Source: Desulfosporosinus youngiae DSM 17734
GTDB lineage: Bacteria > Bacillota > Desulfitobacteriia > Desulfitobacteriales > Desulfitobacteriaceae
Direction: 5' to 3'
Assembly (NCBI RefSeq): GCF_000244895.1
Contig: NZ_CM001441.1
Coordinates: 2,252,226 to 2,316,225, forward strand
DNA: 64,000 nucleotides
The notes beneath the pieces were generated by a model. It had not been told where the DNA came from, made no database searches, and worked only from the letters and a program-made list of their open reading frames with translations. This document shows positions 34,754 through 43,570 of the stretch, one piece after another. Position 1 is the stretch's first letter; every line of letters starts with the position of its first letter. The position numbers and the translations under genes were made by a program.

Positions 34754-35995
34754 TTAGTTTTTAATGAGTATTGATAAGTACTTCATTGAGTTTAAACCTT
34801 TTCTTTTGAACCAATCTTTCGTTTCATTTATGTATTGAGGATTGTGTTCAATTGTTTTGGCAAAGGACTGAATCAGCTTAACTGACAACTCTAAACTAAG
34901 TCCTTGGTGGAATCCGGCAATACCGGTAAGAAGCATTTTGATCAATGAGTAATGAAACACGAGCTTTATATATTCGTCAAAAATATCTCCGTTACTCAGT
35001 GGAAAAAGATTATTGTAGACGTAATTCACCAGATAATTCTCAAAAATATATTCGTGCTTAAAAGCAAAAGGAGCGTAGTAATTTTCAAAGGCCAGACGAT
35101 AGTTTTCAGCCGAAATATCTAAGCTTATGTCAGGTGAATGCTTTATGCCTTGCAAAAACTCAATGAAACATTCAGCGTAGCGTTGATTGGTTATTCCCTG
35201 TACAAGCCTTGTGAGAGCGCTTTGCATCAACAGTTTAAACTGAACTACCGGGGATGTGGGGGTTTTCGCGAGAAGCGCTGTTAAAGACTCTTCCTTTAAT
35301 AATTGGGCAAAGGAAGCAATGAACTCAGGTATAGTATCAACCTTTTTTTCATTACATACTTTCGCAAGCTTTTGAAAAAACAATCCCAGGATAATAAGCC
35401 GTTCCTCGAGCTTATAATCCCTGTTCTTTAATAGATGAAGTGTAAAATTTCGTAAATCCTGAAAATACTTGTTGGGTGTATCAGTGAAGGCCGGATCATT
35501 GGTATTAAGTGAAATTGAAATTTTGTTGCGCACATCCAGAGGTTCTTGTACTGAAATAAAGTCAATTCCTTTAGAGTTTAACAGTGCCACGCGTACAGCC
35601 TCGGGACAGGACATGACAGCGGATTTTTCCAGGATACCGTTGATAACATTAGTTACCCGGGGAAAAGCAAAACAAATCTGGGGTAAATAGTTTTCGCCTT
35701 GTTTTAACTGCATTAGGCAAAGTCTTTTTTTAGTTAAAAAAGGGCAGGTTGAATCATTGTTTAGTATCACATGGGCGTAGGTTTCCGCACTTTGTTCGGT
35801 TTGGTTGAGTTCGACCTTATTATCGATTATTTCTTTCAATGCCGGGTCATGGATACTGCTGTATTTTTTGAAGGTTCCGCTGTCCACCGTGATACTGCTC
35901 CAGCCAAAGCAGCAGCTGTCCTCGCAGGCGGAACCTATGCAATTGAAAGACTTCAGGTAGAGAGGCATTTGTATCTCTCTCGTTGTTTTAGTCAT
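34754..35995 (-). CDS. fliB: FliB-type flagellin lysine-N-methylase
   Basis: A 413-residue protein. The Cys-rich N-terminal region (FNCIGSACEDSCCFGWSSITVD, CPFLTKKRLCLMQLKQGENYLPQICFAFPR, MSCPEAVR) is characteristic of FliB, which methylates lysines of flagellin and holds an iron-sulphur cluster. The helical C-terminal half has no known motif. The start is supported by GAGGG on the minus strand. No flagellar genes are in the window, so it is a stand-alone copy. The regulation is not visible. Confidence 0.8.
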   Translation of the reverse strand: MTKTTREIQMPLYLKSFNCIGSACEDSCCFGWSSITVDSGTFKKYSSIHDPALKEIIDNKVELNQTEQSAETYAHVILNNDSTCPFLTKKRLCLMQLKQGENYLPQICFAFPRVTNVINGILEKSAVMSCPEAVRVALLNSKGIDFISVQEPLDVRNKISISLNTNDPAFTDTPNKYFQDLRNFTLHLLKNRDYKLEERLIILGLFFQKLAKVCNEKKVDTIPEFIASFAQLLKEESLTALLAKTPTSPVVQFKLLMQSALTRLVQGITNQRYAECFIEFLQGIKHSPDISLDISAENYRLAFENYYAPFAFKHEYIFENYLVNYVYNNLFPLSNGDIFDEYIKLVFHYSLIKMLLTGIAGFHQGLSLELSVKLIQSFAKTIEHNPQYINETKDWFKRKGLNSMKYLSILIKN

Positions 35996-36182
35996 GTATT
36001 TTCCCTCAAATCCATTTAAGAGTGTTAATATTAATTAAGGCACAATTATTATAATTTTACACCCAAATATGGGCCTTTTTCCCTGATAATTTTAAAACTT
36101 GTATATAAAAATATTAAGTGTCAGGCCTCAATAAAATTTATGAAGAAAACGAATCGTTTGTGGCAAAAAGTAAGGAGTGGGG

Positions 36183-36211
36183 TTGACGTATTCAAATAAT
36201 TAAAATAATAT
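36183..36211 (+). promoter_or_regulatory. sigma-A-type promoter of the riboswitch-controlled operon
   Basis: TTGACG (36183-36188) and TAATAT (36206-36211) with a 17-base A+T-rich spacer. The start would fall near 36218, just before the cobalamin riboswitch. Confidence 0.7.
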
Positions 36212-36227
36212 GTAGCTAAGTAAATAA

Positions 36228-36412
36228 CTGATACGGTATCGAGGTGCCCTGAAAGAGGGAGAATAGGGAATCCGGAATTGTCTTCAAAGGTGACAATAAA
36301 CGGAGCGGACCCACCACTGTAATCGGCGAGCGATCAGAGGCCACTGGCATAAGCCGGGAAGGTCCTGAAGAACAGCAATGACCCGTAAGCCAGGAGACCT
36401 GCCTTGGTATTG
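36228..36412 (+). promoter_or_regulatory. cobalamin (adenosylcobalamin) riboswitch
   Basis: Conserved blocks occur in the right order: GGTGCC near 36242, GAAAGAGGGAGAATAGGGAA, GCGGACCCACCACTGTAA near 36304, and the B12 box AGCCAGGAGACCTGCC at 36388-36403. The flanks GATACGGTATCG and CCTTGGTATTGTAG could close P1. The terminator right behind it suggests transcriptional repression when cobalamin is bound. The controlled genes are a symporter and a selenoprotein reductase operon, an unusual regulon for this element. Confidence 0.92.
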
Positions 36413-36433
36413 TAGATTGTTAAGGATGAAGGT

Positions 36434-36476
36434 AAAGTCCTACGTCAAATTTTAAATTTGGCGTAGGACTTTTTTA
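36434..36476 (+). terminator. regulatory terminator of the cobalamin riboswitch
   Basis: AAGTCCTACG (36435-36444) pairs with CGTAGGACTT (36462-36471), extended by CAAATTT/AAATTTG, followed by a T run. It lies between the riboswitch and the first small ORF. Confidence 0.88.
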
Positions 36477-36496
36477 TTTGGGAAAGGGGTGATTTT

Positions 36497-36601
36497 ATGT
36501 TTGCTTCTACAGCGGGGACGTTCCTATTCTCAACAATCATCGTTTTTGTTGTTGCTTCGCTGGCAATCTCGGTATTAAGCAAGAACTTATTTAAACTGTA
36601 A
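36497..36601 (+). CDS. 34-residue single-helix membrane peptide (symporter accessory)
   Basis: A short gene with RBS GGAAAGGGG. The peptide is MFASTAGTFLFSTIIVFVVA followed by a short tail ending LFKL: one transmembrane helix and a basic end. It lies 40 bases before a sodium/solute symporter gene. Small accessory peptides of this kind accompany such symporters in other Firmicutes (from general recollection, not searched). It is likely co-expressed and may stabilise the transporter. Confidence 0.7.
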   Translation: MFASTAGTFLFSTIIVFVVASLAISVLSKNLFKL

Positions 36602-36641
36602 AAGTAGTATACCAGTGAAAAAATGTTAAGAGGTGGTTTAT

Positions 36642-38084
36642 ATGAGTATGGAAATGATCATCGGGTCGATATTATTCTTTGCCAGCATTATTGTAGTTGT
36701 GCTTCTTGCCCATAAACATACAGGAAGTGTCAGGGGTTATTTAACTGGGGATAACAATGTGGGCGGAGTAGTATCGGCCTTTACCTGGTCGGCTTCGGCA
36801 GCCAGTGCAGGACTTTTTTTAGGGGCAGCGGGGTTGGCTTATCAGTTTGGCTGGGCCGGTTTGATGTATCTTTTGGGTGTATTTGGGAGCATGTTTATCA
36901 GTTGGGTCCTGGTCATTCCAAGATTACGTCGTGTCGCTGTCAAGGCATCCATTTTGACGACGGCAGATTATTTGGCTCTGCGTTTCGGCAAAGAAAATCT
37001 GAAACCAATTACAGGACTTTGGACGCTGATTTTTATTATCCCTATGATTATTATCCAGCTCATGGGAGCCGGTTACCTTATTGAGTCAACCTTAGGCATC
37101 AGCTATTTTTGGGGAATGATTATTTTGGGTCTGACGATTGTCATTTCTACTCAGTTTAGCGGCTATCTAGGGGTTGCCTGGCTGGACACTCTGCAAGGAA
37201 CGATCATGACGATTGGGACGATTGTTATGGTATACATCTCCATGAAGCTCGTGGGCGGGTTCTCCGGTCTCAATGCTCAGCTGGCGGTCATCGATCCGAA
37301 GCTCATAGAATTTAGGGGTTCCATGCCCCTAACTTTACAAATAGGTCTAATTATATCTTACCTTATCGCCTTTTGGGGTCAGCCGCATCTGACCGCGCGA
37401 GTATGGGGGCTTAAGGATTCCCTGGCGATGCGCAGAGCGTTTCCCATTTCTATGGCACTTGGAGCACTGTGGTCATTTGGTGCTGGCTTGGTCGGCTTAA
37501 CTGCCCGGGTCATTCATCCCGGTCTGGCCAAATCCGATATGGCTATGCCGAGCGTGATCAGTGGTCTGCCCTCAATTTATGCGGCACTTTTGTTTTTTAC
37601 ATTAATTGCGGCAATGATGACAACCGCTAATTCCCTCTTGCTTGCCGTTTCAGGTACGGTAGGCAATGATATTCTGCCGCGCTTCTCTAAAGACGTAAAG
37701 GAAGGCACCAAGTTATTAGTGATAAAAGGGGCAGTTCTGGTGATAGGAATCATTTCCTTTGTGCTGGCCTTAAAACCTCCGGCCTTAATCCTGGAAATCA
37801 ATGCTTTCGCTTTCGGTGGGTTTGCTTTGATTTTTGGTATTCCGCTGATACTTGGCGTCCTCTGGAAAAAGGCCAATCTCAGCGGCGCGCTGGCCGTGGT
37901 CGGTATTAGTCCATTGGTTTATATTATCTGGAAGCTGTTTTTAGTCAAACTAACCGGAATTCATGAAATGGTCGGTGCCTTGCTCGTGACCATTCTGATC
38001 ATCCTCATAACTACGATCATTGGTAAGAAGCCTACCCCGCAAATGGAGGAAATATTTAGCTTAGGTCAGACCCCAAAGGTGTAA
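36642..38084 (+). CDS. sodium:solute symporter (SSS family)
   Basis: A 480-residue membrane protein with about 13 helices of the SSS/LeuT fold (PutP/PanF relatives). AFTWSASAASAGLFLGAAGLAYQFG near residues 45-70 and RRVAVKASILTTADYLALRFG match family landmarks. ATG 36642 follows AGAGGTGG; an upstream GTG at 36633 is part of that site. It is the first large gene behind the riboswitch and precedes the reductase genes by 24 bases, so it probably imports their substrate (glycine betaine, sarcosine or a similar amine; inference). Confidence 0.9.
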   Translation: MSMEMIIGSILFFASIIVVVLLAHKHTGSVRGYLTGDNNVGGVVSAFTWSASAASAGLFLGAAGLAYQFGWAGLMYLLGVFGSMFISWVLVIPRLRRVAVKASILTTADYLALRFGKENLKPITGLWTLIFIIPMIIIQLMGAGYLIESTLGISYFWGMIILGLTIVISTQFSGYLGVAWLDTLQGTIMTIGTIVMVYISMKLVGGFSGLNAQLAVIDPKLIEFRGSMPLTLQIGLIISYLIAFWGQPHLTARVWGLKDSLAMRRAFPISMALGALWSFGAGLVGLTARVIHPGLAKSDMAMPSVISGLPSIYAALLFFTLIAAMMTTANSLLLAVSGTVGNDILPRFSKDVKEGTKLLVIKGAVLVIGIISFVLALKPPALILEINAFAFGGFALIFGIPLILGVLWKKANLSGALAVVGISPLVYIIWKLFLVKLTGIHEMVGALLVTILIILITTIIGKKPTPQMEEIFSLGQTPKV

Positions 38085-38108
38085 TATCAGAAGAGAGGAT
38101 GAATCTCG

Positions 38109-39422
38109 ATGGAGAAAAGGATTAAAGTTTTTCATTACTTAAATCAATTTTTTGGAGAAATTGGCGCTGAGGATAAAGCGGACACCCCTCTGGAATTTCA
38201 GCAAAAAGCAGTAGGGCCGGGAAAGGAATTAGGGCGTTTGCTCGGTGAATCCTTTGTTATATCGACAACGGCAATTTGCGGAGATAACTATTTTCAAGAA
38301 AACCAGGATGATGTGCTAAAAAGAATTGCTCAAAAATTACAGCAGGAAAAAGTGGACCTCATCCTTGCCGGACCTGCCTTTGGTGCCGGACGCTATGGTG
38401 TTGCCGGCGGAGCAGTTTGTCAGTATTTATCTGACTTGTTGGGAATACCGGCGCTTACTGCTTTCTCGCCGGATAATCCCGCAGCAGAGATGTATCGCCG
38501 GAATCAAACCATCTATATTCTGCCCACGACTAAAACCGTGCGAGGGATGCAAGATGCCTTAGTCCGGATGGCTGCTTTTGCTCATAAGGTAGTGAGCCAA
38601 AAAGAGCTGGGAGCCGCTCAAGTCGAAGGCTATCTACCTCGGGGAATTCGCAAAGTCATTTCACGTGAGAAATCGGGCGCCCAAAGAGCCATAGAGATGC
38701 TTGAAGCCCGTTTGCAAGGCAGGAGTTACACTAGTGAACTGGTTCTCCCGGTTTTCGAACAGGTTAGGCCGCCCAAACCTGTAACGGAGCTGGCAAGTGC
38801 TAAACTTGCTTTTATAACCACGGCGGGGGTTGTCCCTAAAGGAAACCCCGACAAGATGAAAGCCTTAAATACGGACAATTGGGCGCTTTATCCCTTGGAG
38901 CTGCTCAGCGGAGGGGATTATGAATGCATTCATGGCGGAATTAATCCGGACCATTTAAACGCGCGGGCGGAATATGTTGTGCCCCTGCACACTGCTGATA
39001 AGTTTCGGGAACGGGGAGTTATCGGCTCGATCTTTAATAACTACTTTGTTTCAGCAGGATGCGGCGGGGTCATCAAGACGTTTCAAAGAATGGGGAGAGA
39101 AATGGCTGCCGCCTTAAAAGAAAACCATATCGATGCAGTAATTCTTACCAGCACATGAGGTACGGACACGCGCAGCGGTGCTGTGCTCGCCAAAGAAATC
39201 GAAAAATCCGGGATTCCCGTGGTGCTGGTCACCGCCATGACTCCCTTAGCCAAACAAGTAGGTACGAACCGGATCGTTAAGGCAGTGAAGATACCTCATC
39301 CCTGGGGTGATCCCAGGGCAAGTGCGGCAAAAAATAGGGAAATAGAAGCAAAACTATTTGAGGCAGCCCTTGATTTGTTCCAAAAAGAGGTGACGGGACC
39401 AACGATCGCTCAACCCATCTGA
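38109..39422 (+). CDS. component B selenoprotein (GrdB/GrdF/GrdH family), Sec at UGA 39156
   Basis: A 437-residue selenoprotein of the glycine/sarcosine/betaine reductase component B family, which binds the amine substrate and forms the selenoether-linked intermediate. The frame is interrupted by TGA at 39156-39158 and continues without shift to 39422. The context LTST-U-GTDTRSGA matches the family motif TST-U-GTCTRCG, with Asp and Ser in place of the two Cys. A hairpin at 39171-39185 (CGCAGC, loop GGT, GCTGTG) begins 12 bases after the UGA and fits a bacterial SECIS. A naive caller would split this gene. Which substrate it takes cannot be read from the sequence. Confidence 0.9.
39171..39185 (+). 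promoter_or_regulatory. candidate bacterial SECIS hairpin in the component B gene
   Basis: A six-base-pair stem with apical loop GGU, starting 12 bases after the UGA codon (loop at about 18). Distance and a G in the loop match what SelB recognises in known bacterial SECIS elements. Confidence 0.55.
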
Positions 39423-39451
39423 AATAACATCCTGTGAAAGGAGAAACGACT

Positions 39452-40747
39452 ATGAAACTTGAAGTCGGTACGTTTTATATCGAGAATGTTGAGTTTGGCC
39501 CTCAGACCGCATTGCGGCAGAAGATGCTGGTTATCAATAAAGAAGAACTTCAGGAAATCTTACTTAGGGACAGTACCTTCGCCGAGGTAAACATTGAAAT
39601 AGCTGCACCGGGCGAGAATACACGAATTATTCACATCATGGATGCCGTAGAACCCAGAATTAAAAAGAGCGGCAGGGATAATACCTATCCGGGCATCGAA
39701 GCCCCTGTCTGTCGCGGAGGGAGCGGGACGACCTACCGGCTCGATGGGGCGGCTGTAATAACATCCTGTCTGATTCCTTTGCGTAAAGCTGGCGGACTGT
39801 ATATTGCCAGGGAAGGGATCATGGATATGGCCGGACCAAACGCCGCCTTGACTCCCTTCAGTAAAACCTGGAATGTGGTTCCTGTACTTACTGTAAAGGA
39901 GGGGCTTGATGAAGAAGTCTATGAAAAAGCAATCCGTAATGCCGGGATTATCACTGCCCGCTATTTGGGGGAAGTCACCCGGGAGTTAGAACCGGATGAG
40001 ACGAAGCAATATTCAATAGAAGAAAAAAGTCCTGATTTGCCCAATGTAGTCTACATTGATCAATTAGAGTCTTGCGGACTCTATGGAAGAAATTATTTAT
40101 ATGGAATGAGCTTCGATGATTTACTGCCCACACTGATTCATCCCAACGAACTGATGGATGGTGCTGTAGTGAATGCCTTGCACTCTCATACTGCGACCCA
40201 GACTCCGACCTATTATCAGACCAATAATCCAATCGTGGAAGAGCTGTATAAGAAGCACGGAATAAGTTGGAATTTCTGCGGCGTCATTCTTTGTCGGGGA
40301 CATTTCGAAGATATTGACAGCAAACAGCGCTGTGCCAATTTGGTTGCCGGAATGGCTCAGATGCTGAGGGCAGATGGCGTTATCGCCACCTGGGAATGCG
40401 GGGGCAATACATTCATGGAAACGATGCTTTATCTGAAAGAATGTGAAAGAACAGGGATTAAAACTGTGCTGGTGACCTATGAACATGGAGGAGCGGACGG
40501 CACAGATAATCCTCTATTCTACTGGGAGCCGGAAGTTAAAGCCATAGTCAGTACAGGAAGTCTGGATCGTACGATACATTACCCCAAGGTAGACCGTGTG
40601 GTCGGAGGAGATAGTATCCGTCTCTATCCTGAGAAAGGAGGAGTTCACCTGCCGGCTAGTGAAGCCTTGGATTTAGATTATCGTCTGGAAGCATGGTGCG
40701 CCTGCAACAACATTGGCATGGTCAATACGAGTTGTGATGAATTTTAG
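39452..40747 (+). CDS. component B pyruvoyl-subunit precursor (GrdE/GrdG/GrdI family)
   Basis: A 431-residue proprotein that is self-cleaved into alpha and beta chains, with a pyruvoyl group at the new N terminus. The group forms a Schiff base with the amine substrate. NVVYIDQLESCGLYG near residue 208 holds the likely cleavage Cys208. GGADGTDNP and VVGGDSIRLYP near the C terminus are family blocks. The ATG at 39452 follows AAAGGAGAAACG. It partners the selenoprotein encoded just upstream. Order B-selenoprotein then B-proprotein is the reverse of the classical grdE-grdA-grdB operon. Confidence 0.88.
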   Translation: MKLEVGTFYIENVEFGPQTALRQKMLVINKEELQEILLRDSTFAEVNIEIAAPGENTRIIHIMDAVEPRIKKSGRDNTYPGIEAPVCRGGSGTTYRLDGAAVITSCLIPLRKAGGLYIAREGIMDMAGPNAALTPFSKTWNVVPVLTVKEGLDEEVYEKAIRNAGIITARYLGEVTRELEPDETKQYSIEEKSPDLPNVVYIDQLESCGLYGRNYLYGMSFDDLLPTLIHPNELMDGAVVNALHSHTATQTPTYYQTNNPIVEELYKKHGISWNFCGVILCRGHFEDIDSKQRCANLVAGMAQMLRADGVIATWECGGNTFMETMLYLKECERTGIKTVLVTYEHGGADGTDNPLFYWEPEVKAIVSTGSLDRTIHYPKVDRVVGGDSIRLYPEKGGVHLPASEALDLDYRLEAWCACNNIGMVNTSCDEF

Positions 40748-40761
40748 GAAGGAGGTTCCAA

Positions 40762-41223
40762 ATGATAAAGGGAAAAAAGGTCATTGTCATTGGTGATCGT
40801 GATGGTATTCCATCTCAAGCCCTTGAAGATTGTGTGCGCAGTGCGGGAGGGAACGTGATATTCGCCATGACGCATTGTTATGTCTGAACATCGGCGGGTG
40901 CCATGGATCAAGAGAATCAGGTGCAAATCAGAGCACTTGCTCAAAAGTACAGCAGGGAAGAATTAATGATTGTGCTGGGCAGTGCAGATCCGGAAATGGC
41001 CGCTATCGCCGCAGAAACGGCGGCAGGCAGGAACCTGACTTATATTGGTCCATCCGCTGAAGTCCGGTTCGGACTCAAAGCGTATCATGTTCTGGAACTA
41101 AAAGAATTCATTGCTCCGGAGGTTTATTCCCGTCATCTGGAGATGATGGAAATGATCCTTGATATTCCGGGAATCGTCTCCGAAGTCTCATCCGTGCGGG
41201 AACAAGTTTTTGCTGAGGAGTGA
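40762..41223 (+). CDS. grdA: glycine/sarcosine/betaine reductase component A selenoprotein, Sec42
   Basis: A 153-residue selenoprotein that carries the carboxymethyl group as a selenoether between components B and C. Sec42 is encoded by TGA 40885-40887 in HCYV-U-TSAGAMDQENQ, matching the GrdA motif CFV-U-TAAGAMDLE with the redox partner Cys39. The frame continues to 41223. The N terminus GKKVIVIGDRDGIPSQ is typical. The ribosome site is AAGGAGG. A short GGC-GGGT-GCC hairpin just after the UGA may be the SECIS core. Its stop overlaps the region of the grdC start. Confidence 0.95.
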
Positions 41224-41228
41224 TTAAA

Positions 41229-42671
41229 GTGATGTACCCTGTTATCAAAGGAGCGAGCTATGATTTAATTCACACACCCGGTCTGATGATGCAGCAAATT
41301 CAGGGGAGAAACCCGGAGTTATGTACGCTCACGGAGCATCTTCGGACCTTCGCCAGTGCGGTGGGTTATCCGCCTCATCAGGCGTTTATCGGCAATATTC
41401 TGCCGGAAGATTTACCAACTGTCTCCCGGCCCTGGTATAAAAACCTTTTGTCTGACACGACACGTCAGGGACAGCGGGGTGAAATAGTCCCTGAGGATGA
41501 GTTTCTTGGTTTAATGAAGGTTGTTGATGAGTTTGAGCTGGTATGCTTGGAAGATAGCTTTCAGAAGGCTATCCTGGAAAGACTGCGGACCAACTCTGCT
41601 GTGCGCGCCCTCAAAGGAGTTTGTGAACCCTCAGCAAAGGGCTACTCTCTTTGGGAAATACAAGAGATGATCCAAAAGGAGGATGCCCTGCCGCTTTCTT
41701 GCGCGGGAATGACTAAAGGCTGTGTGCGGAGGGGGAGTACAACTGATCCTGAGCATTCTGCGTCCAGGGTGGCCGAAAATATCATAACCAAAGCTTCGGC
41801 TGTCATCGCTCTCCAAACTCTTTTTCTGAAGACAGGGCTTGAACCATCGGATGTGGATTATGTCATCGAAGCATCTGAAGAAGCGTGCGGCGACTTGCGG
41901 CAAAAGGGCGGCGGGGGTTTTGCAAAGTCGATCGCCGAAGCATGTTCCTGCCTTAAGGCCAGTGGGGCAGATATTCGGGCATTTTGCGCGGCCCCTGTGC
42001 ATGCGCTTATGCAAGGGGCTGCCCTGGTTCAGTCCGGGATTTTTAAAAATGTTGTGGTTGTCGCCGGGGGATGCAGTGCCAAGCTGGGCCTTAATGCCAG
42101 TGTGCATATTGAACAGAAAATGCCTTTGTTGGAAGATATGCTGGGAGCATTTGCTTTCTATATCAGTGAGAATGACGGGATAAATCCGATAATCCGCACG
42201 GATCTTATAGGCAGAATGAATGTCGGCTGCGGTGATTCCCCGCCGGTAGTTTATCGTGCTCTCGTTGCTGACCCTTTAGCTAAGGGCGGGTACAAGATCA
42301 CCGATATCGATCGTTACGCCGGTGAACTGGTCAATCCTGAACTAATTGAGCCAATCGGATGTGGGGATGTGGCTAAAATGAACTATAAGATGATTGCTTC
42401 TCTTGGAGTTTTGCAAGGTGAGTTCGAACGTACACAGATCGAGGCCCAGATTAAGCGTTTCGGAGTACCGGGCTTTGCCCCCAATCAGGGGCATATACCC
42501 TCCGGAGTGACCTATATCGGACCGGCATGTGAGCTTATACTTCAAGAAAAAATATCTCAAGTCATGATCATAGGAAAAGGAAGCTTATTCTTGGGAAAAC
42601 TGACGCATTTATACGATGCCGTTTCACTGATTATTCAAAAAAATCCGGGCGATTTGTTTTCGCTTTCTTAG
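41229..42671 (+). CDS. grdC: glycine reductase component C beta subunit
   Basis: A 480-residue FabH-like protein (YPVIKGASYDLIHTPG, then YPPHQAFIGNILPEDL) of the GrdC family. With GrdD it converts the carboxymethyl-selenoether of GrdA to acetyl phosphate. GTG 41229 is placed 8 bases after GAGGAG; ATG 41232 is equally possible. No grdD gene follows here, and no thioredoxin or thioredoxin reductase gene lies in the window, so GrdD must be supplied from elsewhere or the system differs from the standard one. Confidence 0.85.
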   Translation: MMYPVIKGASYDLIHTPGLMMQQIQGRNPELCTLTEHLRTFASAVGYPPHQAFIGNILPEDLPTVSRPWYKNLLSDTTRQGQRGEIVPEDEFLGLMKVVDEFELVCLEDSFQKAILERLRTNSAVRALKGVCEPSAKGYSLWEIQEMIQKEDALPLSCAGMTKGCVRRGSTTDPEHSASRVAENIITKASAVIALQTLFLKTGLEPSDVDYVIEASEEACGDLRQKGGGGFAKSIAEACSCLKASGADIRAFCAAPVHALMQGAALVQSGIFKNVVVVAGGCSAKLGLNASVHIEQKMPLLEDMLGAFAFYISENDGINPIIRTDLIGRMNVGCGDSPPVVYRALVADPLAKGGYKITDIDRYAGELVNPELIEPIGCGDVAKMNYKMIASLGVLQGEFERTQIEAQIKRFGVPGFAPNQGHIPSGVTYIGPACELILQEKISQVMIIGKGSLFLGKLTHLYDAVSLIIQKNPGDLFSLS

Positions 42672-42928
42672 TTCCATAGGAGTTAAGAGGGCTAAATAAT
42701 AAAGGAGAAGTCTGTTACGACATTTAAGAAAGTTAAAGAGTTAGCGGAAGTGAAGAGCCGGAAAAGCTGTAAATCTGTTCCGAAAACTGAGTAATAATTT
42801 CTGTAAATAGTTTTTTATGTGTATAATAAATTATGTTAGGAAAGTCAGTTCCAAAACTCGCCTAATCTTTGCAGTGCGCCACGCATGGTGTTATCAATCA
42901 GAAAACGTGAAAAGGTGGAAGAAAGACT
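42672..42928 (+). promoter_or_regulatory. spacer with putative promoter for the LUD gene
   Basis: A TATAAT box at 42822-42827 with a weak -35 (TTCTGT at 42799-42804, 17-base spacer) could start a separate transcript. A short open frame without a standard start codon (KSVTTFKKVKELAEVKSRK) precedes it behind AAAGGAGAAG; it is not called as a gene. No grdD fragment was found. Confidence 0.4.
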
Positions 42929-43570
42929 ATGGAGAAAACGCCTTTAGAAATCCGTAACGACAAATTAGGGGAAAAGGTCGTAAAAGCGCTTAACAGACGG
43001 CATTTTGAAGCCTATTACGTGAGAACGAAACAAGAAGCGTTGGAGAAGGCTTTGGAACTGATTCCGGAAGGCAGTGTAGTGTCCTGGGGCGGTTCAGTGA
43101 CAATTCAGGAAGTGGGTCTTCTGGATTCAGTCAAAAACGGTAATTATTCGGTAATCGATCGGGATACCGCGACAAATCCTGAGCAAAGAATGGAACTCAT
43201 GCGTCAAGCTCTTACGTGTGATACGTTTCTTTCGAGTATAAATGCCATGAGTGAAGATGGTCAGCTGGTCAATATCGATGGCAATGGCAATCGAGTGGCG
43301 GCCATGGCTTTCGGCCCCAAAAGTGTGATCGTGGTAGCTGGAATTAATAAAGTGAGACCCACAGTGGAAGAAGCCTTTTCAAGAGCAAGGAATGTGGCTG
43401 CGCCCATTAATGCTCAACGTATCGGTATAACGACACCCTGTGCCATTAATGGTTCCTGCGGTGATTGTATTGCACCTGATTGTATCTGTGCGGATCTTGT
43501 GACTACTCGGATCAGCCGGCCGGCAGGACGCATCAAGATTCTTTTGGTGGGAGAGTCGTTGGGCTACTGA
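42929..43570 (+). CDS. LUD-domain (lactate utilisation protein-like) protein
   Basis: A 213-residue protein of the LUD/DUF162 family (LutC/YkgG relatives), with SVVSWGGSVTIQEVGLLDSV and GPKSVIVVAGINKVRPTVEEA typical. The C-terminal Cys cluster CAINGSCGDCIAPDCIC may bind a metal or iron-sulphur cluster. RBS AAGGTGGAA. Family members take part in lactate oxidation complexes, but many clostridial copies are stand-alone and of unknown role. It ends before a terminator at 43615. Confidence 0.85.
   Translation: MEKTPLEIRNDKLGEKVVKALNRRHFEAYYVRTKQEALEKALELIPEGSVVSWGGSVTIQEVGLLDSVKNGNYSVIDRDTATNPEQRMELMRQALTCDTFLSSINAMSEDGQLVNIDGNGNRVAAMAFGPKSVIVVAGINKVRPTVEEAFSRARNVAAPINAQRIGITTPCAINGSCGDCIAPDCICADLVTTRISRPAGRIKILLVGESLGY

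Follow-up and report, generated by a model that had tools for sequence, protein, structure and literature searches.

A 64,000-nucleotide stretch of the Desulfosporosinus youngiae DSM 17734 genome (contig NZ_CM001441.1, positions 2,252,226 to 2,316,225; hereafter the window) carries a cobalamin riboswitch with an intrinsic terminator in front of genes for a symporter and for components A, B and C of a selenium-dependent reductase of the glycine/sarcosine/betaine (Grd) superfamily. Six other genomes, of related bacteria, keep the same pairing of riboswitch and grd genes, which suggests that the cells respond to a shortage of B12 by turning to a selenium-dependent pathway that needs none. We conclude, with moderate confidence, that a cofactor swap is the best explanation of these findings; its specific form, in which a cobalamin-OFF switch derepresses a B12-independent selenium reductase route when B12 is scarce, as for MetE and NrdD, we hold to be on balance probable.

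An Rfam search of the whole 64-kb window at gathering thresholds returned the Cobalamin family (RF00174) as its sole match. The aptamer covers the full model, positions 1–189, and passes the curated threshold, and the expression platform is present in the form of a terminator downstream of it; the complete B12 riboswitch with terminator claimed in a preliminary description of this DNA is thus borne out. In 100 dinucleotide-shuffled versions of the 90 nt 3′ of the aptamer the score of the terminator was never reached, and the fold of the leader is unusually stable (z = −5.0; equal stability in 0 of 200 shuffles). A simple terminator scan of positions 36000–43000 gave seven sites against 7.9 in shuffles, with no excess overall, the six other sites being short, with 5–6 pairs each. 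A promoter-like match at 36183–36211 was set aside as having no value as evidence, 11 such matches being found against 9.8 expected.

The pairing of riboswitch and grd genes is conserved. The window genome (G000), a single 5.66-Mb contig, contains 22 cobalamin riboswitches along with a single GrdB gene. A GrdB match is present in 12 of the 45 family genomes, the window genome included, and all 15 listed GrdB loci besides that of the window were examined for cobalamin riboswitches: four have one beside grd genes (L061–L064), whereas none was detected at the nine other full-length loci (L052–L060) or at the partial loci L065 and L066. At the level of the phylum, 122 of 398 genomes match the window GrdB; among the best 20 GrdB loci outside the window, riboswitches occur at one (L098) and at none of the other 19. 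A further set of named GrdB loci, the best 80 of 429, gave L117 (identical with L098, genome G054, filed as a Thermincola ferriacetica metagenome-assembled genome, MAG), L118 (Geosporobacter ferrireducens IRF9) and L119 (identical with L064), together with matches at L137 and L129, which have B12-related neighbours, three further riboswitch matches at E 0.2–0.45 and none at the remaining loci. Misses at grd loci that end at contig ends are softer than the others. The carriers are therefore seven: the window genome, four congeners (G018, G024, G028, G032), the Thermincola MAG and Geosporobacter (G437). Since the pairing recurs in seven genomes, the link between riboswitch and grd genes is not a matter of chance, and the search among relatives that had been proposed at the outset leaves the observation stronger than it was when first stated. 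Type II GrdB, the double-riboswitch type, is found in one of ten genomes from the class of the Thermincola MAG.

Some riboswitches near grd or methyltransferase genes were not counted as grd-linked. Those at L137 and L129 have neighbours that resemble B12-transport or cob genes, and those beside the MttB/grd clusters of G018 and G028 have neighbours resembling cobalt energy-coupling-factor (ECF) transporter or cbi genes, all of these names being read from translations and not taken from family searches. In two congener clusters (L234, 4029–14699; L236, 5424–12629) an MttB-family gene, a transporter gene and either a grd set or a gene resembling a regulator adjoin cobalt-ECF/cbi-like genes with a cobalamin riboswitch of their own; most of these names likewise come from translations.

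Two riboswitch classes, a and b, occur at these loci. In G018, G024, G028 and G054 riboswitch a is followed by grdA and grdC, after which riboswitch b precedes a small open reading frame (ORF), symporter, grdB and grdE, and a second riboswitch 5′ of grdA-grdC is present in five of the seven carriers. The grd and riboswitch pieces of G032 are split over two short contigs. Geosporobacter has riboswitch b with symporter, grdB and grdE, and its one grdC match sits elsewhere, within a canonical grd cluster that includes GrdD and at which the riboswitch model gives no more than an 11-bit match. In the window all the genes form a single run behind one riboswitch, which its aptamer insert and terminator sequence place in class a. 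Its GrdA and GrdC proteins are 65–70% identical to those of the other riboswitch-linked systems, whereas identity is lower for GrdB (43–46%), GrdE (52–53%) and the symporter (37–40%); this difference suggests that the riboswitch goes together with grdA-grdC and that the part specific for the substrate varies. In the Thermincola MAG, grdE is split over two frames (L098, 3676–4967), through sequencing error or decay.

The reductase itself is of a distinct kind. Its place in the glycine/sarcosine/betaine reductase superfamily is clear, with GrdA above its model cut-off, the GrdB UGA at the shared position and GrdB passing the broad model TIGR01918 (405 bits, cut-off 65). The same GrdB scores below cut-off with the betaine GrdH model NF040795 (381.7 bits, cut-off 775), the sarcosine model (406.8 bits, cut-off 800) and the glycine model TIGR01917 (367.5 bits, cut-off 602.2), as do, for all three substrates, L061, L062, L098 and L118, the further riboswitch-linked GrdBs that were scored. 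In a tree of 112 GrdB sequences the seven riboswitch-linked proteins and L097 form one group (Shimodaira-Hasegawa-like approximate likelihood-ratio support, SH-aLRT, 98), separate from the glycine, sarcosine and betaine enzymes. The genome of L097 (G147) has three cobalamin riboswitches and no MttB-family gene. At the selenocysteine (Sec, U) the window GrdB reads UGTDTRS in place of the UGTCTRC found in 110 of 115 GrdBs; the other riboswitch-linked GrdBs retain UGTCTRC.

The accompanying GrdE-type subunits have lost the cysteine that gives rise to the pyruvoyl group, which forms the N-terminus of the GrdE fragment starting at residue 242 (PMC9908766). In an alignment of 107 sequences, which left L098 (two frames) and L064 (cut) uncounted, the cysteine is absent from all five readable riboswitch-linked proteins, the canonical GNC-VSACDK being replaced by NALHSHTATQ in the window and by GNWSHPNVK in L061, L062, L063 and L118. 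Betaine-type subunits also lack it: L053, L057, L058 and L191 have GSFMPCSSK, and L148 is similar, L053 and L191 lying beside a model-confirmed GrdH and L057 and L058 being neighbours in the tree. It is missing as well from the GrdE-type proteins of L097, L114 and L129. In lacking this cysteine the window subunit agrees with the GrdI type. In the fluoroacetate reductase FarBE, the FarE subunit is, like GrdI, without the two cysteines from which the pyruvoyl group is processed, and FarB has no CxxC (PMC10838667); the window component B resembles FarBE in the first respect and, with its UGTDTRS motif, in the second. Unlike FarBE, however, the window subunit scores 150.7 bits against a FarE cut-off of 675, and the other riboswitch-linked GrdBs keep UGTCTRC. 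No relatives of GrdB or GrdE were found in the PDB. These features suggest a substrate for which no Schiff base is required, betaine-like compounds included.

Protein C is altered as well. From 108 places, with four cut, one without the anchor motif and duplicates dropped, we obtained 86 GrdC sequences. All six riboswitch-linked members (G000, G018, G024, G028, G032, G054) combine a short C-terminus with a P[IT]GCGD pattern, and five of the six also have VGCGDSP, the cysteines of these motifs being new; among the other 80, one is short (L116) and none has either GCGD pattern. A GrdD probe scored at least 432 bits in G018, G028, G147 and G437. It gave just 24.9 bits in the window genome, a single contig, and 20.4 bits in G024, matches that we take to be PlsX-type and read as no GrdD, and it matched nothing in G032 (79% complete) or G054. 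GrdC together with GrdD, which makes up protein C of the glycine reductase complex, was thus not found in the window genome. Protein C is the acetyl phosphate-forming part of that complex (PMC9908766), and the window genome, free of GrdD, raises the question of how an acetyl group leaves GrdC; the altered GrdC may pass it to CoA.

The preliminary description had listed the symporter, component B, GrdA and GrdC; these stand, with the addition of a 34-residue ORF, but the missing GrdD and the altered GrdC and GrdE had been overlooked. Its statement that none of the genes uses B12 agrees with our inspection, in which neither a B12-dependent enzyme nor a cob/cbi-like gene was seen among the genes of the operon.

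As to how the leader might act, a terminator lies 3′ of all 11 aptamers tested, and in each case 0 of 100 shuffles of the following 90 nt score as high. For the class-a terminator stem, 65 of 66 cells in its 11 outer pairs are paired, compared with 30–61% when the alignment is slid by 1–3 columns, and RNAalifold finds two-sided changes in 10 of the 70 pairs of the class-a leader. A candidate antiterminator would pair the 3′ strand of the B12 box and P1 with GAAGGTAAAGTCCT, which overlaps the 5′ arm of the terminator and is kept in all six class-a leaders (−11.3 to −14.2 kcal/mol). In the window this duplex has −11.4 kcal/mol, an energy reached by 58 of 500 shuffles, and it is missing from the truncated minimum free energy (MFE) fold. 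Class b has instead a local hairpin (GGTG..GAT with ATC..CACC) that overlaps the terminator arm in six of six truncated folds. As a general rule cobalamin riboswitches are OFF switches (PMC11477304); from this rule and the presence of the terminator we infer the OFF direction here.

Under the explanation that we favour, binding of cobalamin, the probable ligand, would let the terminator form and repress the symporter together with components A, B and C of the reductase. When cobalamin is absent the leader would refold and transcription would go on. The enzyme would be a distinct Grd type whose GrdB selenocysteine attacks an activated X-CH2-COO− compound (a quaternary amine, sulfonium, ether or halide) without the need for a Schiff base; GrdA would carry the Se-carboxymethyl group, and the shortened GrdC would take the acetyl group without GrdD. 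The reductase would thereby offer a B12-sparing alternative to failing corrinoid-dependent routes. A bolder version, which we put forward tentatively as a possibility, is that this represents a previously undescribed, GrdD-free type of selenium reductase with its own substrate clade, governed by cobalamin riboswitches, of which five genomes have two at each locus, and that bacteria living by corrinoid methyl transfer use it, once B12 is exhausted, to shift an entire catabolic or acetyl-forming route away from cobalt and onto selenium, delivering acetyl to CoA through the altered GrdC.

The principle has precedents. Both NrdDG, with its B12-dependent counterpart NrdJ in the same genome (PMC545781), and metE (PMC2211319) are B12-independent enzymes under cobalamin riboswitches. 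As in those cases, the window riboswitch precedes genes whose products apparently need no B12, in a genome that also has B12-dependent enzymes; in contrast to those cases, its target is a selenium-dependent reductase pathway rather than an isozyme for a single reaction. The window genome itself has an NrdD gene behind a cobalamin riboswitch (L007, G000:C1:471624–471807, + strand; 666 bits, cut-off 548) and an NrdJ-type enzyme above its cut-off (708 bits). For a putative corrinoid counterpart of the reductase, the MttB/MtgB genes that the preliminary description had wished to see looked for elsewhere are indeed present: 13 genes belong to the MttB family, and four of these contain an in-frame TAG. 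One of the 13, L024, matches PDB chain 9yce, named glycine betaine methyltransferase, with 878 bits (2qne is also matched) and lies beside MtgA (610 bits, cut-off 550) and MtgC (407 bits, cut-off 310). The other carriers G018, G024, G028, G032, G054 and G437 have 26, 2, 20, 5, 2 and 6 MttB-family genes, respectively. We call MtgB-like any protein with an L024-like score of at least 555 bits, a threshold of our own, the MtgB identity having been tested for L024 alone. As regards a B12-free target with a B12-dependent counterpart in the same genome, the operon contains no B12 protein that we could see, and an MtgB-like gene is present in the window genome but in neither of two other carriers among the seven. 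The precedent of NrdD within the same genome is stronger than the evidence from MttB.

Several observations weigh against this explanation. Covariation in the class-a terminator is not above that of column shuffles (173 of 500), the energies of the class-a antiterminator are matched by 2–58 of 500 shuffles, and a single truncated fold of six, that of L062, uses it; since shuffles reach its energy and one fold in six adopts it, the antiterminator is a weak candidate. The window GrdB fails every substrate-specific model, it forms with L097 a pair of long branches that meet, as the tree program warned, and the L097 locus has no riboswitch. The genomes without an MtgB-like score are G024 and G054, each with two MttB-family genes. 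MttB-family genes occur in 32 of the 45 family genomes, so their co-occurrence discriminates little, and we dropped it as proof. Finally, the NrdJ model also matches 11 of 14 control genomes, in seven of them above its cut-off.

The substrates first proposed were methylated amines such as betaine, and the operon could be a glycine betaine reductase standing in, under B12 scarcity, for the demethylation of glycine betaine by the MtgB-dependent route. The window genome does hold mtgA, an mtgB-like gene and mtgC, its GrdE lacks the pyruvoyl cysteine as betaine GrdI does, and Sporomusa sphaeroides uses betaine through both MtgABC and Grd, with SigL promoters in the main cluster (PMC12456013). The likeness to the GrdHI and MtgABC of Sporomusa extends to Grd standing alongside corrinoid demethylation genes and to a betaine-type component B without the cysteine, but the Sporomusa genes are SigL-regulated or SigA-driven (PMC12456013), whereas the window has a cobalamin riboswitch, a different GrdB clade and no GrdD. 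The score of 382 bits against a betaine cut-off of 775 and the separation of the clade from GrdH led us to reject betaine reductase as the identity of the window enzyme; moreover, the true betaine reductase of G018 (L053, 808 bits against the same cut-off) has no cobalamin riboswitch, and two of the seven carriers have no MtgB-like score. We therefore consider this reading unlikely and the assignment to betaine unsupported, although the logic of the cofactor swap, with its conserved riboswitch, mtgABC genes and NrdD precedent, fits. About as unlikely, or slightly more so, is that there is no swap of substrate and that the gain lies in an electron sink and in acetyl groups supplied without B12 once the Wood-Ljungdahl pathway, which depends on corrinoids, breaks down; GrdC would then give acetyl to CoA and not form acetyl phosphate. 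The absence of GrdD from G000, G024 and G054 and the altered GrdC of all six riboswitch-linked systems would suit this, and it would also fit the carriers G024 and G054, neither of which gave an MtgB-like score, but the riboswitch-linked component B of Geosporobacter has only a canonical grdC with GrdD as its partner.

Much less probable is a role in cobamide metabolism, through import or processing of a precursor or scavenged compound. Cobalamin riboswitches mostly govern synthesis or transport, and a symporter follows this one; Grd chemistry, however, consumes acetate derivatives, no cob/cbi-like gene was seen in the operon, and the symporter is nearest to the panF and putP models. In Sporomusa, too, the cobalamin riboswitches described are on cobalamin synthesis and transport genes (PMC12456013). 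That the riboswitch is a relic or hitchhiker without control of the operon is the most improbable of all, given full-length aptamer matches with a terminator after 11 of 11 aptamers, and two riboswitches retained in five relatives despite a gene order unlike that of the window.

Control of grd genes by a riboswitch is itself known from C. difficile, whose grd operon is under a riboswitch as in the window; its ligand is the substrate glycine (PMC11477304), whereas the predicted ligand in the window is a cofactor of other enzymes. The claim that no regulation of this kind had been described holds in part: the principle had been described (PMC545781, PMC2211319), and a cobalamin riboswitch on grd genes was not found in the open-licence literature searched, which is weak evidence of absence as subscription journals are mostly outside it. 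Cofactor-sparing switches have been described for single enzymes such as MetE and NrdD, and here a multi-protein selenium pathway is concerned; if our explanation is true, the B12 supply would decide the use of methylated and related acetate derivatives in these anaerobes.

The features of the operon, in the order riboswitch, small membrane ORF, symporter, GrdB, GrdE, GrdA and GrdC, are collected in Table 1.

Table 1. Features of the riboswitch-grd region (window coordinates).
Feature	Position	Strand	Evidence or remark
Cobalamin riboswitch aptamer	36225-36420	+	RF00174, 96 bits (gathering 31.5), E 1.2e-22
Candidate antiterminator (weak), pairing the 3′ strand of B12 box/P1 (about 36391-36406) to GAAGGTAAAGTCCT (36428-36441)	36391-36441	+	predicted
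Intrinsic terminator, 18 pairs then T-run	36434-36472	+	
34-residue hydrophobic small ORF, 5′ of symporter	36497-36601	+	
Na+/solute symporter (SSF)	36642-38084	+	PF00474, 186 bits
GrdB-type selenoprotein	38109-39422	+	PF07355; read-through, Sec at UGA 39156-39158
Possible SECIS-like hairpin, GGU apical loop, 3′ of GrdB UGA	39164-39191	+	predicted from fold only
GrdE/GrdG/GrdI-type component B subunit, without pyruvoyl cysteine	39452-40747	+	PF09338, 386 bits
GrdA selenoprotein	40762-41223	+	NF040748, 181 bits (cut-off 130); Sec at UGA 40885-40887
GrdC-type subunit, shortened at the C-terminus, with cysteines in VGCGDSP and PIGCGD	41232-42671	+	NF040746, 667 bits (cut-off 450)

The small ORF had no match in an NCBIfam search, and a hydrophobic ORF of 33 residues also lies 5′ of the symporter in six of six class-b leaders; these ORFs perhaps encode a small transporter subunit. 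The symporter, though nearest to the panF and putP models, is under both cut-offs. The selenocysteine insertion sequence (SECIS)-like hairpin after the GrdB UGA is no more stable than expected (z −0.25; 78 of 200 shuffles equally stable), and an Rfam search for a SECIS in 38900–41100 gave nothing at E ≤ 1. Upstream of the riboswitch, on the opposite strand, is a gene for a FliB-type flagellin lysine methylase (34754–35995), and downstream of the operon is a LUD-domain gene.

Other loci showed features of their own. At L220 (G026:C22, 7052–9607) the start of a regulator-like ORF continues in frame into the later half of GrdB, as far as the UGA, which could be a fusion, a deletion or an assembly fault. 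Among the remaining riboswitches of the window genome, L019 (G000:C1:4264955–4265140, − strand) lies about 285 nt 5′ of a histidine ammonia-lyase-like gene that is cut at the locus end (403 bits of a 524-bit cut-off) and has no evident need for B12. L005 (G000:C1:2857588–2857764, + strand) is 5′ of a zinc alcohol dehydrogenase-like and then a TrpD-like gene, both named from their translations. L002 and L008 (G000:C1:3965502–3966070, − strand) are tandem cobalamin riboswitches about 210 nt apart that precede two very similar proteins with signal-peptide-like starts.

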